A stretch of DNA of 38,568 nt from an uncultured Myxococcales bacterium (lineage in GTDB: Bacteria; Myxococcota_A; Polyangia; Palsa-1104; JAEUJZ01): assembly GCA_937859535.1 (NCBI GenBank), contig CALLYL010000022.1:1-38568 (forward strand). The letters run 5' to 3'. This document shows, in pieces, positions 27,366 to 37,669 of the stretch. A program made the translations under genes and the position numbers. Below the pieces are notes generated by a model. That model saw nothing but the letters and a program-made list of their open reading frames with translations, was not told the DNA's origin and did not search any database. How positions within the stretch are numbered: the first letter of the stretch is position 1; each line of letters starts with the position of its first letter.

Positions 27366-27449
27366 TTACGGGAGCGAACGCACGATTCGGAAGCCTCGGT
27401 CCCCGTCAACGCTATCTGGATTTATCGCTCCACGGATTGCGACTCGGAC
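27366..27449 (-). pseudogene. C-terminal coding tail of the FGE-like gene beyond an in-frame TGA
   Basis: Immediately after the TGA at 27450-27452, the same frame stays open for 27 codons: VRVAIRGAINPDSVDGDRGF then RIVRSLP, followed by TAA at 27366-27368. This is the expected C-terminus of the FGE/sulfatase-modifying-factor fold (RVAxR...PDxRDxxxGFRxVR). The upstream gene has therefore been cut by a single nonsense codon, unless the TGA is read through or is a sequencing error. Confidence 0.8.
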
Positions 27450-28466
27450 TCACTGCACAGGGAACCGTAACGAACCGCCACGGATTAACCGAAGGGAGCC
27501 GTCTAATAGTGGACCAGTTGGGTCCGCTGGTGAAGTCGCTCCATAGCCCGCATACTCATCCCAAACCCACTCACAAACATTTCCACTTAGGTCGTGCAGT
27601 CCCCAGCGGTTCGCCAGCTTCGTTCCCACCGCCTGCGTGGTGCCTACGGAGTTAGTATTGCTCCAAGCCACTTCATCGGCATTGTCTGAGCCTGAGTACA
27701 CAGTTTGCACGCCGGCCCGCGCTGCATATTCCCATTCTGCTTCCGTTGGCAGTCGATAACCTAGGCAGTTTGGCCCCTCCGGCCAACTTACACGATGTCC
27801 TGCAACCTGATAACAAGATGGTAGTCCATCTAACGCCGACAGCTTGTTGCAATAGCTCACTGCTTCGAACCAACTCACATGTTCGACTGGTCGTTCCAAA
27901 TTACCCTTGTAGTCTGACGGATTCATTCCTGTCACTTGTTGGTACTGCCGCTGTGTTACCTCCGTCACTGCCATGGCAAAGCGCGTCTTGATGTGTACCT
28001 CATGCTTTGGCTTTTCCGAGGGAGACGCGTCTGGATCTCCCGATGCGCTACCCATCTGAAAGCTCCCTACCGGAAGCTCAAGCATGGCGGGTCGAAGACA
28101 AGTCTTTCTTTCCATCTCAACCATTCGCACGGTCTGTTCTTTTGTAACCCGCAGCGCTGGGCCGAGATCTTCTCGCAACTCCTGTTCTGAGACCCTGCAC
28201 CCATTCCGATCCTCACCCCAGATCAGTAAGCGAATTTGGCCCTGTCGTCCTTCGGGCAGGTACACCAGAAACCCTTTGGACCCTTTTCTTAGGGTGAAAC
28301 CCTTGGACGCTACTCCATCGAGCCATTGCAGAACCTGCACACTCTCAGCATGTTCCGGCCATTCCTCGATGTGGACCAGCAGCGCGGGTTCACCTTCACA
28401 GGAACAGACAAGCACCAGCATCAACAGGGAGAACCACCGTAGCACCAGATCATATCTTTTGTTCAT
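27450..28466 (-). CDS. FGE-sulfatase/SUMF1-like lipoprotein, interrupted near the C-terminus
   Basis: 338 codons before TGA. AAGGAG precedes the ATG by about 9-10 nt. A signal peptide ends in a lipobox-like VCSC. Residues about 25-125 form an unrecognised N-terminal domain; about 125-338 are an FGE-like C-type-lectin fold: GSFQMGS near the start, EVTQRQYQQVTG, RPVEHVSWFEAVSYCNKLS, YRLPTEAEWEYAARAG, GLHDLSGNVCEWVWD and LIRGGS. The Cys pair that makes true FGE catalytic is not present at the usual C-terminal place, so a binding or structural role is more likely than formylglycine formation. It is the last gene of a minus-strand operon (38 nt after the TPR-TM gene). The domain is finished only if the in-frame TGA is bypassed. 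Confidence 0.85.
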   Translation of the reverse strand: MNKRYDLVLRWFSLLMLVLVCSCEGEPALLVHIEEWPEHAESVQVLQWLDGVASKGFTLRKGSKGFLVYLPEGRQGQIRLLIWGEDRNGCRVSEQELREDLGPALRVTKEQTVRMVEMERKTCLRPAMLELPVGSFQMGSASGDPDASPSEKPKHEVHIKTRFAMAVTEVTQRQYQQVTGMNPSDYKGNLERPVEHVSWFEAVSYCNKLSALDGLPSCYQVAGHRVSWPEGPNCLGYRLPTEAEWEYAARAGVQTVYSGSDNADEVAWSNTNSVGTTQAVGTKLANRWGLHDLSGNVCEWVWDEYAGYGATSPADPTGPLLDGSLRLIRGGSLRFPVQ

Positions 28467-28504
28467 GGCACAGACTCCTTTCTACCCTTCAAGACGTGGA
28501 CTAC

Positions 28505-35140: not shown

Positions 35141-35194
35141 ATCCTGTTTTCCTCCAAACGAAGTGCAGATTGCACTGCGGAGAATCGATCCACC

Positions 35195-37669
35195 ATGCGT
35201 ATCCCACCGACATGGACACTCCTGTTCTTGACTGCGCTTGTGGCGCTTACAAGCTGCAAACCCCAGGAGTATTTTTGTGCTCCGGGCGAAGTCTTGGTGC
35301 AGATCAAGAACATCGATATCGAGCCCGGACAGAGCACTCCAGTACAAATTGGTGCGTTTTGGCGGCTGAATGGACAGCTCCGAACGCGTCCCGCTAGGCT
35401 AAAAGGGGCGGTGAACGAACTAGGACTCTGTGTCGATCCTGAGTTACCCGCGACCGGTACCAGTGAGCTGAGGATGACCGTGATCGGGCTCGATGGCTCG
35501 GGCTTGATGACCCTTGGCACGGAGCTAACTGTTGCACTTTCCGCAGAGGACATCAACCAGCTCAAGGCAATCGAGCAGACTACGCTTTCACGTCCCAGAC
35601 TCTGTAACAGCCAAGGCTTTTGTTGGGAGAACCCTAAGCCACAGGGTGTCAATTTGGTTTCGGTCGCCACCCATGACCAGGAGAGTGTCTGGGCCGTCGG
35701 TGCCGCAGGTACCATTATTCACTGGAACGGAGGCTTCTGGAATCGTCTGGACGTTCCCTACTCCGGCCTCTTCCATTCCGTGTGGGTCGATGAATCCGAC
35801 GATGCTTGGGTGGCAGGAGGAACCGAAGCCGGAGTGGGTGTGGAGGCATCCGCCAAAATCTATGTCTGCAAGAATATCAAGCCAGATCTACACGGACGAG
35901 AGTGTCAAGAGATCCCAACTGGTACGAACGAGCTGTTTACCCAAATTGCCGGGGTTGATTCCAACCATGTGTTTGCGATTGGGAAGGCCGGTGTCTTTGC
36001 GTGTAACCGCCGCGGCTGTAGTCTGATCAAAGGGGGCAGTTTTTCATCTCTTCACATCGAAAACAAAGACAGCATCTTGGTCGTTGGTTCTGGCGGTACG
36101 CTGCTTCGCTGTACCGGTGGAATCTGTACGCCGCTGGTCACGAACACCACGCAGAGTCTATCTTTCGTCACGGTCGATCCATCCGGGGCCATTCATGCAG
36201 TGGGCGATGCTGGAAGCTACGTGGTTTGCAAAGACGATCGGTGCGACTCTCGGAACACCGGCACCACTCAACAGCTAGAGCAAGTGGTCGTCCTGTCGTC
36301 CGGTCGCAGCATCATCCGAGGGAACCCCAACATCATCGTGTTCTGTGATGGCACCGGCTGCGGCCCAGTGACGGTACCGGCTCCGACTGCTAGCGCACGT
36401 CCAGGATACAGAGCCAAAGCCAGCAGACTCACTGGTCTGTATGTATCCTCCGATCGGGGCTACTGGTTGTCAGGATACGATACTCTATTGGCCGATACCG
36501 CAGCGAAGCCTGAATCTTTGGCTGGTTTCATTCTCCGCTGCGACGACAAAACGTGTACCCGAACTGCGGAGGTCAAACCGACCAACTCCCTGGCGATGAT
36601 CACCGGCAGTGACCCAGAAAATATCTGGTCGGTAGGCGGCAACGGGTTGCTGATGCGTTGCGCGGAAAGCAGCGGGTGTAGCGAACGCTCAACTGGACCG
36701 ACCTGGACCCTTGAGAGTGCGACCGGGAGCGCTGATGTCCTGTGGGCCTCCGGTCAGGAGGGCGCGGTCCTTCGTTGCGAAGCAGACGTCGGATGCAAAC
36801 AGATGGGTCCAGTCCCCAGTGGGTCGAAGCAATGGGGAATCGCCGGAGCCACCACCGATCGAGTCTGGACGACTGGTGAGGGTGGCTCTGTGGCAACCTG
36901 CACAAGCAGTGGCTGTTTCGCACTGACGACTCCCAACCAACATCTATATCAAGCAATCTGGCCCGGCGGTCCTGCGAGCGTCTGGATTGGGGGCGGCGGA
37001 GCAACCATTCTTCGTTGCAACAGCGGAACCTGCACCACCCTTCAACAGGGAGTCGGTACCGATGTGATGTCGATCTGGAGTGCAGACGGAGAGAACATTT
37101 GGGCAGCCGGTCGAGTCAACGATGGAGGAAAGGAGTTCGGTGCGATGTGGAGATGCAGCTCCTTGGGATGCAATCGAGTTGCAACAAGTCCCAACATGCC
37201 ATCAAACTTCAAGGCAGTACGCGGAGGGATCGGGGATCGGGTTTGGGCGGTTGGGGAGGCAGGCTCCGTGGCGCGATGTGATGGCGCGGGTTGCAACGCT
37301 TTGGCGACGCCGTTGAGCGATTCCCTGACATCGATCTTTGTGCTCGATTCGGAACACGCACTCATCTCGGGTACCAGCGGCAAGCTCCTGTCCTGTTCCG
37401 GTACGAGTTGCCAGAGCCAAGCGTCGGGGACGACCAAGGATCTACGGTCTATCGGTGGACTGAGCGCCGATCTGTTTTGGATCACTGGTGACCAAGGGAC
37501 AATGATCCAGTGCGTGTCTCAGCAGTGCGACCAGATGCAGGCGTTGACCGACGCTCACATCAAGCCGGTGGTCGTGTCCGATAAGCAGCACGCATGGATC
37601 GTCGCTGGTGGAGGGGCCGTTTTCCGCTACTATCCCGATCGGGTGCGGAGAGATTCCTTCGCGAAGTAA
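35195..37669 (+). CDS. Large lipoprotein with Cys-pair beta-propeller-like repeats
   Basis: 824 residues with signal peptide and lipobox (LTSC). After ~150 residues of unrecognised N-terminal domain, the rest is built of ~40-50-residue repeats with a WAVG/WAAG-G-GG core (for example VWAVGAAGTIIHW, IWSVGGNGLLMRC, VWAVGEAGSVARC), the pattern of Ycf48/BNR-type propeller blades. Most blades carry a close Cys pair right after the strand: RCTGGIC, RCDDKTC, RCAESSGC, RCEADVGC, TCTSSGC, RCNSGTC, RCSSLGC, RCDGAGC, SCSGTSC, QCVSQQC. These pairs would form small disulfide loops. Likely a surface or periplasmic binding protein; ligand unknown. Last gene of the plus arm, 54 nt after the TPR-TM gene. Confidence 0.8.
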   Translation: MRIPPTWTLLFLTALVALTSCKPQEYFCAPGEVLVQIKNIDIEPGQSTPVQIGAFWRLNGQLRTRPARLKGAVNELGLCVDPELPATGTSELRMTVIGLDGSGLMTLGTELTVALSAEDINQLKAIEQTTLSRPRLCNSQGFCWENPKPQGVNLVSVATHDQESVWAVGAAGTIIHWNGGFWNRLDVPYSGLFHSVWVDESDDAWVAGGTEAGVGVEASAKIYVCKNIKPDLHGRECQEIPTGTNELFTQIAGVDSNHVFAIGKAGVFACNRRGCSLIKGGSFSSLHIENKDSILVVGSGGTLLRCTGGICTPLVTNTTQSLSFVTVDPSGAIHAVGDAGSYVVCKDDRCDSRNTGTTQQLEQVVVLSSGRSIIRGNPNIIVFCDGTGCGPVTVPAPTASARPGYRAKASRLTGLYVSSDRGYWLSGYDTLLADTAAKPESLAGFILRCDDKTCTRTAEVKPTNSLAMITGSDPENIWSVGGNGLLMRCAESSGCSERSTGPTWTLESATGSADVLWASGQEGAVLRCEADVGCKQMGPVPSGSKQWGIAGATTDRVWTTGEGGSVATCTSSGCFALTTPNQHLYQAIWPGGPASVWIGGGGATILRCNSGTCTTLQQGVGTDVMSIWSADGENIWAAGRVNDGGKEFGAMWRCSSLGCNRVATSPNMPSNFKAVRGGIGDRVWAVGEAGSVARCDGAGCNALATPLSDSLTSIFVLDSEHALISGTSGKLLSCSGTSCQSQASGTTKDLRSIGGLSADLFWITGDQGTMIQCVSQQCDQMQALTDAHIKPVVVSDKQHAWIVAGGGAVFRYYPDRVRRDSFAK

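Follow-up and report, generated by a model that had tools for sequence, protein, structure and literature searches.

The window analysed here, a contig of 38,568 bp (C22) from the draft genome of an uncultured Myxococcales bacterium (G000; 7.4 Mb in 948 contigs), contains eight signalling and envelope protein genes that diverge from one intergenic region (Table 1). In the reading we favour, which we consider about 55% probable, the cluster brings together two parallel transenvelope receptor modules with interchangeable outputs around one local sigma54 transcription switch. Module A would comprise a Ser/Thr kinase with a transmembrane (TM) segment, a tetratricopeptide repeat (TPR) protein with TM segments and a cysteine-rich (Cys) propeller lipoprotein; module B seems to follow the same build, with an EAD7-like adaptor joined to a TM segment and a PEGA-like part, a second TPR-TM protein and a putative lipoprotein with an FGE domain. 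The divergent eight-gene layout had been described in an earlier note on this DNA, and all eight open reading frames (ORFs) were confirmed in position and strand. The tight packing reported there holds for the activator and kinase genes, which overlap by 16 bp, and does not make the minus arm one tight operon: the gene for the coiled-coil protein (coil gene) and the adaptor gene are 136 bp apart, and the adaptor, TPR-TM 1 and FGE genes beyond this gap may therefore form a transcription unit of their own. That note contained neither the promoter nor the repeat described below, nor the EAD7-like nature of the adaptor or the parallel build of the arms.

Five of the eight genes form a conserved core, in which the gene for a coiled-coil TM protein diverges from that of an FHA-sigma54 activator, which is followed by the Ser/Thr kinase, TPR-TM and Cys-propeller lipoprotein genes. 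Their order and orientation are kept in a second genome, G003, which belongs to another genus of the same family; because five of eight genes are retained in this way across genera, we take the conservation to be more than chance. G003 was the single relative found when the propeller protein was searched against 96 genomes including its own (E ≤ 1e-30). When the activator was searched against 317 genomes of its class (E ≤ 1e-95), again only the own genome and G003 were obtained; this threshold excludes distant orthologues and makes these two genomes a lower bound. The two genomes of the same genus, G001 and G002, gave no propeller or activator match at these respective thresholds, and no counterpart of the adaptor or of the FGE protein was found in the 50-kb surroundings of the G003 locus that were inspected. 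One further locus, JAEUJZ010000141.1, the only one retrieved by a scan with the helix-turn-helix (HTH) part of the activator, proved to be the same record as the G003 locus (contig C21) and was set aside. The single eight-gene unit proposed in the earlier note thus resolves into five genes conserved together and a separate recurrent trio (adaptor, TPR-TM 1 and FGE); of the co-occurrence that it had proposed to examine with the coil and propeller proteins, the core shows it in the one relative found and the whole cluster does not.

Within the core, the fusion of a phospho-Thr reader to a sigma54 activator next to a kinase, on which the earlier note had built its argument, was confirmed by Pfam (FHA, Sigma54_activat and Pkinase), with FHA and activator domains in one chain as expected of an FHA sigma54 enhancer-binding protein. 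The activator, whose first start codon is TTG, is 51% identical to its G003 orthologue overall and 69% identical over the last 52 residues, which form the HTH end. It carries GAFTGA, GETGTGKE, LFLDE, IGR, SRQH and VNG where the orthologue has GAYTGA, GETGTGKE, LFLDE, IGR, SRTH and LNG; we take these to be the GAFTGA-type loop, the Walker motifs and the FHA phospho-binding motifs, so that the FHA and sigma54-contact motifs appear intact in both proteins. The kinase is a complete Hanks-type domain showing HRDLKPSN and DFG, presumably the catalytic motifs, and is 68.5% identical to the G003 kinase across residues 32-266. The 16-bp overlap of the activator and kinase ORFs is the same in G003.

The intergenic region, 286 bp between the divergent starts of the coil and activator genes, contains a tandem 13-bp repeat and, closer to the coil gene, a sigma54-like site. 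Two close copies of the repeat are also present in the G003 intergenic region, together with a sigma54-like site (TGGCACCGAGGTTGCA, 11/12 consensus positions) that faces the G003 coil gene. Coil-directed sites this good arose in 1.05% (window) and 0.1% (G003) of first-order simulations, 2000 of which were run over the intergenic interval for the window. The repeats lie 119-157 bp upstream of the sigma54-like site in the window and about 280-300 bp upstream in G003. Among the 317 genomes, the two-unit repeat was found without mismatch in two, solely at the window and G003 loci; up to two mismatches gave six genomes, against one for a reversed control pattern. In four genomes of the family, a 20-mer spanning the repeat junction matched without mismatch only at the window locus, and with two mismatches at four further places (two in G003, one in G002 and one in G001), compared with one place, in G000, for the reversed control. 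Such a repeat and promoter would be expected if an enhancer-binding protein regulated the gene divergent from its own, and we infer that the activator probably switches on the coil gene. The proposed kinase-to-activator-to-sigma54 promoter route, which agrees with the kinase-to-transcription idea of the earlier note, is well supported at the sequence level, because the five-gene core is conserved, the activator and kinase genes overlap with intact motifs, the repeat is specific to the locus and a sigma54-like promoter stands before the divergent gene. Another candidate site (9/12), before the G003 propeller gene, was dropped, as the corresponding 54-bp gap of the window has none scoring 9 or more.

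An unlikely alternative is that the cluster is an ordinary myxobacterial signalling island, in which an FHA-activator/kinase pair of the Myxococcus xanthus type has unrelated envelope genes beside it. The genome holds 59 FHA matches and 164 kinase matches, and chance adjacency is likely somewhere; moreover, GC content drops near 24 kb of the window from about 63% to about 57%, a tyrosine recombinase (Pfam) lies at this border and the same-genus genomes give no strong match, so the region may be an acquired patchwork. Cluster genes have a GC content at third codon positions (GC3) of 0.54-0.67, compared with 0.75-0.84 in five genes to the left, and judging from this composition the cluster was likely acquired by transfer; the right end of the presumed acquired region was not located. 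Against a mere patchwork stand the five-gene synteny and the intergenic repeat, both conserved in another genus, as well as two trios that recur in order and exist as single-chain fusions (see below). In support of the kinase-to-transcription route, FHA activators lie near kinases more often than other sigma54 activators in the own genome (6/17 versus 2/26, p = 0.03), a rough figure from the best 150 of 164 kinase matches and from many short contigs, with one FHA activator (C450) outside the distance rule and so counted as non-FHA.

Somewhat less likely still, the intergenic repeat may be bound by another regulator or be structural, as palindromic GC-rich repeats can be, while the activator acts elsewhere. 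This explanation has to contend with the confinement of the zero-mismatch two-unit form to this locus in both genomes, with the position of the repeats upstream of the sigma54-like site in both, and with an HTH end that is better conserved than the activator as a whole. Sigma54-like sites at 15 other FHA activator loci of the own genome were intergenic and upstream of a gene near three of them (the second copy on C911, C651 and C643), and 14 of the 19 sites listed at such loci lie inside predicted genes, which makes them weak evidence. In L042 (3304-4609), a putative lipoprotein gene with a sigma54-like site is divergent from another FHA activator, in a layout that echoes the window. Two loci on C911 (L034 and L035) hold two FHA-activator/kinase pairs, one FHA plus kinase frame and one CHAT-EAD7-like protein.

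The parallel between the two modules emerges from their recurrence elsewhere. The succession of kinase, TPR-TM and propeller genes is found again on two contigs of the own genome, C900 (kinase cut by the contig end) and C635, and on C236 kinase, TM segment and propeller are joined in a single chain. The module B trio recurs on C706 as an EAD7-like-TM protein, a TPR-TM-like protein and a protein with the N-terminal domain of propeller lipoproteins (N-domain; cut by the contig end). The latter two were recognised by two profiles (E = 1.6e-15 and 4.5e-5), the TPR-TM profile having been trained only on kinase-linked proteins and the N-domain profile only on propeller lipoproteins. With the same profiles, TPR-TM 1 of the window was recognised at E = 3.8e-16 (four kinase-linked TPR-TM proteins in training), and the FGE protein was found to have its N-domain in common with own-genome propeller lipoproteins (seven in training; E = 1.3e-7 among 813 ORFs). 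In G003, contig C77 encodes EAD7-like domain, TM segment and FGE domain in a single chain, of which the FGE part is 51% identical to that of the window (BLAST E = 2e-78) and the adaptor part matches at E = 8e-12. Residues 112-213 of the window adaptor protein match a kinase-tail frame on own-genome contig C365 (BLAST E = 9.6e-6, the best among the kinase-frame tails). Because its tail resembles those of kinase frames and the trios are parallel, the adaptor protein resembles a kinase receptor that carries an adaptor domain in place of the kinase.

Other combinations of these parts were observed. One G003 protein (L139, 1378-4110) combines EAD7-like and kinase parts with a TM segment and a DsbA/thioredoxin part, all in a single polypeptide, which hints at a periplasmic redox input to this network, and one in G002 (L152, 1981-4227) joins EAD7-like domain, calcineurin-like phosphoesterase, TM segment and FGE. 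On own-genome contig C757 (L080, 4531-9831), the genes for a TPR protein and an N-domain lipoprotein are flanked by those of a divergent kinase and of an EAD7-like/WD40 protein in which a P-loop is visible; proteins of 1294 residues with an N-terminal EAD7-like domain, the same length as on C757, also occur in G001 and G002. On C365 (L076, 10313-13242), a stretch of about 1.2 kb that contains an EAD7-like gene (GC3 0.46) seems to interrupt a kinase gene, through insertion or misassembly.

The adaptor domain itself belongs to a multi-copy family. Fifteen aligned copies have a common pattern around AFCxDxFPxVxRRFxxGMDRxxKxNLLL, and Pfam EAD7 matches six of them at E ≤ 0.1 (best 1.4e-5). Four such paralogue scores fall below the 32-bit Pfam cut-off, and we therefore use the label EAD7-like. 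The domain is expanded in this bacterial family: matches number 17 in G000, 25 in G003, 11 in G002, 4 in G001 and 1 in G005, with a single weak match in the other 53 genomes examined. Ten proteins of the own genome, nine of which carry the EAD7-like domain, were scanned for fusion partners, and these include NACHT/AAA, NB-ARC, WD40 and CHAT domains as well as a phosphorylase of the PNP type; the genome thus encodes, outside the cluster, proteins in which the EAD7-like domain is joined to NACHT or NB-ARC. Among 54 EAD7-like ORFs in the loci examined, eight have kinase similarity and eight, the window's included, have a TM segment soon after the domain. All four of the kinase-like ORFs scanned with Pfam have Pkinase above cut-off, one together with a DsbA-like thioredoxin and one with FGE. 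The domain is accordingly present in many copies and fused to effector or signalling enzymes, as EAD-type adaptors are. Its single-sequence AlphaFold2 (AF2) model is helical, with a mean predicted local distance difference test score (pLDDT) of 73.

The fusion of EAD7-like paralogues to CHAT, NACHT, NB-ARC and PNP, as in EAD systems, and the proposal of FGS domains as invader sensors (PMC8195603, available excerpts) would also suit an immune or cell-death hub of the EAD conflict type, with FGE recognising an invader outside, the adaptor firing effectors and the kinase/sigma54 arm as an accessory, and this is the least probable of the alternatives, given that none of the genes in the cluster was recognised as encoding an effector, that Pfam named no vWA, MoxR or GAP1 in the eight proteins, that the EAD7-like gene lies outside the conserved core and that the published FGS sensors are called intracellular in the same excerpts.

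Under the two-module reading, the lipoprotein head would sense a ligand or the state of the envelope and the TPR-TM protein would relay the signal to its membrane partner. In module A, the kinase would place a phosphate on a Thr of its own or of a partner protein, the resulting phospho-Thr would be bound by the activator through its FHA domain, and the activator, docked on the tandem repeats, would drive the sigma54 promoter of the coil gene. In module B, the EAD7-like domain would associate like with like and recruit EAD7-like effectors from genes at other loci (CHAT protease, STAND NTPases and kinases), and the two modules might communicate with each other. More broadly and tentatively, with the odds against it in our estimation, the family may build three-part transenvelope receptors with swappable heads (propeller or FGE) and outputs (kinase or EAD7-like). 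The EAD7-like form would then be laid out like an animal death receptor, with a lectin-fold head outside, one span and an oligomerising adaptor gathering CHAT-protease and STAND effectors, paired here with a kinase-FHA-sigma54 receptor that would join a cell-fate network to a phospho-Thr relay.

Several observations weigh against the two-module reading. The core is present in one relative only, so the comparison is one of two loci, and no module B lies beside the G003 core, leaving the co-working of A and B a matter of inference. Sigma54 sites are short, and the whole window has six that score at least 10, the 20-kb G003 locus another three. The two coil proteins, at 24% identity, may be dissimilar coiled coils that happen to occupy the same position. 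In module A, the hydrophobic stretch of the window kinase (354-372) has a hydropathy of 1.66, just below the threshold of 1.7 that the G003 kinase passes with 2.23, and the N-domain, which had been considered common to both cluster lipoproteins, holds for the FGE protein and fails for the window Cys-propeller. In module B, the window adaptor has no Pfam EAD7 match at E ≤ 0.1, its AF2 model, compared with PDB by Foldseek with the six-helix death fold in view, gave no fold match at E ≤ 0.001, and its TM topology is ambiguous by charge. The earlier description of this protein as adaptor-TM-PEGA stands for the TM segment, called by hydropathy, and not for PEGA, with no Pfam family at E ≤ 0.1. Similarly, the FGE-like lipoprotein of the earlier note keeps its Pfam FGE domain and fails the strict lipobox (VCSC), hence our term putative. 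Its gene, which the note had ended at 27366, stops at an in-frame TGA (27450-27452), 27 codons short of the natural domain end, through decay, readthrough or assembly error.

Table 1. Features of the cluster and of its left-hand neighbour, in window positions
Feature	Position	Strand	Basis and remarks
7TM-DISM - HAMP - Ser/Thr kinase, neighbour of the cluster	24094..26772	-	Pfam
27 codons past the in-frame TGA, resembling the FGE C-terminus, then TAA	27366..27449	-	G003 L144 alignment continues through the stop
FGE-domain (C-type-lectin-like) putative lipoprotein, 338 residues	27450..28466	-	Pfam PF03781, E = 1.2e-41
TPR-TM protein 1	28505..29212	-	N-terminal hydrophobic segment; weak TPRs, all below Pfam cut-off; RWWLWT TM near the C-terminus
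EAD7-like adaptor - TM - PEGA-like protein, 224 residues	29187..29861	-	15-member alignment; TM at 110
Coiled-coil TM protein, 439 residues, target of the candidate sigma54 promoter	29998..31317	-	G003 positional counterpart, 24% identity; TM at 285
Candidate sigma54 -24/-12 promoter TGGCATTTGCATTGCT, facing the coil gene	31361..31376	-	10/12 consensus positions
Tandem 13-bp repeat GATC(A/G)GGCGGCCC, three copies head-to-tail; candidate activator-binding enhancer	31495..31533		Conserved in G003
FHA - sigma54 AAA+ activator - HTH protein	31604..32962	+	Pfam: FHA 49-117, Sigma54_activat 141-305
Ser/Thr protein kinase	32947..34404	+	Pkinase, E = 3e-45, covering 1-259 of 263
TPR-TM protein 2	34295..35140	+	G003 counterpart at the same position, BLAST E = 1.65e-14; hydrophobic segments at 42 and 243
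Cys-hairpin beta-propeller lipoprotein, 824 residues	35195..37669	+	41% identity to G003 orthologue; strict lipobox present

The remaining properties of the encoded proteins are as follows. The Cys-propeller lipoprotein agrees with its earlier designation: each of its 33 cysteines is aligned with one of the 33 in the G003 orthologue, and most are arranged in Cys-x(4-6)-Cys pairs (15 by pattern in the window protein and 16 in G003), which suggests a disulphide-stapled hairpin in most propeller repeats. Its AF2 model is weak (pLDDT 60; predicted template modelling score 0.40) and all-beta, and its Foldseek matches are PDB propellers, including the periplasmic heparin/heparan-sulphate sensor BT4663 (4a2m, 4a2l); since the model is weak, we make no claim on blade number. 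A simple hydropathy scan called TM segments in the coil protein and both TPR proteins, as the earlier note had them, with those of TPR-TM 1 at 15 and 199; the true start of TPR-TM 2 is likely nearer 34361. At E ≤ 0.1, Pfam gave no match for the adaptor and coil proteins and one sub-cut-off DUF each for TPR-TM 2 and the propeller protein. The coil protein matched only itself in 58 genomes including its own, and a pattern scan of wider genome contigs was also empty; its G003 counterpart, of 457 residues, was found by position alone, and a sequence search alone would therefore have called it an orphan. To the left of the cluster, the tyrosine recombinase at the edge of the GC drop is followed (21910-26772) by a putatively glutaredoxin-like gene, a lipoprotein-like gene and the 7TM-DISM-HAMP-kinase gene, a possible genomic island border. 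A paralogue of this last kinase, on own-genome contig C779, is divergent from a propeller lipoprotein gene.

The kinds of parts in the cluster are known. FHA-domain sigma54 enhancer-binding proteins of M. xanthus are reportedly the subject of a 2005 article by Jelsbak, Givskov and Kaiser, and the likeness lies in the joining of FHA and sigma54 activator domains within one myxobacterial protein; the overlap with the kinase gene, the divergent coil gene with its locus-specific repeat and the lipoprotein/TPR-TM receptor cluster may set the present locus apart. BT4663 similarly employs a large periplasmic propeller to sense for a transmembrane kinase system; it is a hybrid two-component system, whereas here the kinase is of the Ser/Thr type and the propeller belongs to a separate lipoprotein with Cys hairpins. 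EADs are described, in the excerpts available of PMC7159879 (Kaur et al. 2020) and PMC8195603 (Kaur et al. 2021), as small and mostly helical adaptors, EAD7 included, that are proposed to make homotypic contacts and are typical of multicellular bacteria; FGS domains are proposed as intracellular invader sensors, and the FGE fold is also found in lectin-like sensors (PMC8195603, same excerpts); we attribute no catalytic activity on sulfatases to the FGE protein of the cluster. The EAD-coupled NTP-dependent conflict systems outlined in both sources resemble our case in having a multi-copy small helical adaptor fused to caspase-like, STAND, PNPase, kinase and FGS domains. In contrast to the systems as they appear in those excerpts, the adaptor here is carried on a TM segment, its partners are a TPR-TM protein and a lipoprotein, and the FGE domain presumably lies outside the cytoplasm. 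Pfam named no core ternary or GTPase component in the cluster, nor VMAP, iSTAND, Ubl or GAP1, no search having been aimed at these core families. Another system for comparison is the two-gene membrane system EACC1, in which, according to the part of PMC7159879 available, a single-TM protein, sometimes fused to EAD1 or EAD2, is the proposed membrane sensor; its partner is a caspase-domain protein from the next gene, and the partners here are TPR-TM and FGE proteins. FHA activators and EAD networks are thus known separately, and what is new is the arrangement, whose membrane form was not found described in the literature searched, a body that includes few subscription papers and is represented in part by excerpts.

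If the two-module reading is correct, the cluster would connect an external sensor with a sigma54 promoter in few steps, by way of a Ser/Thr kinase, and the candidate operator of that promoter can already be named. EAD-type adaptors, known from the excerpts cited mainly in intracellular systems or EACC1, could then also serve as tails of envelope-spanning receptors. Such receptors would represent a bacterial counterpart of the death-receptor layout and would give a reason for the many EAD7-like copies in these genomes.

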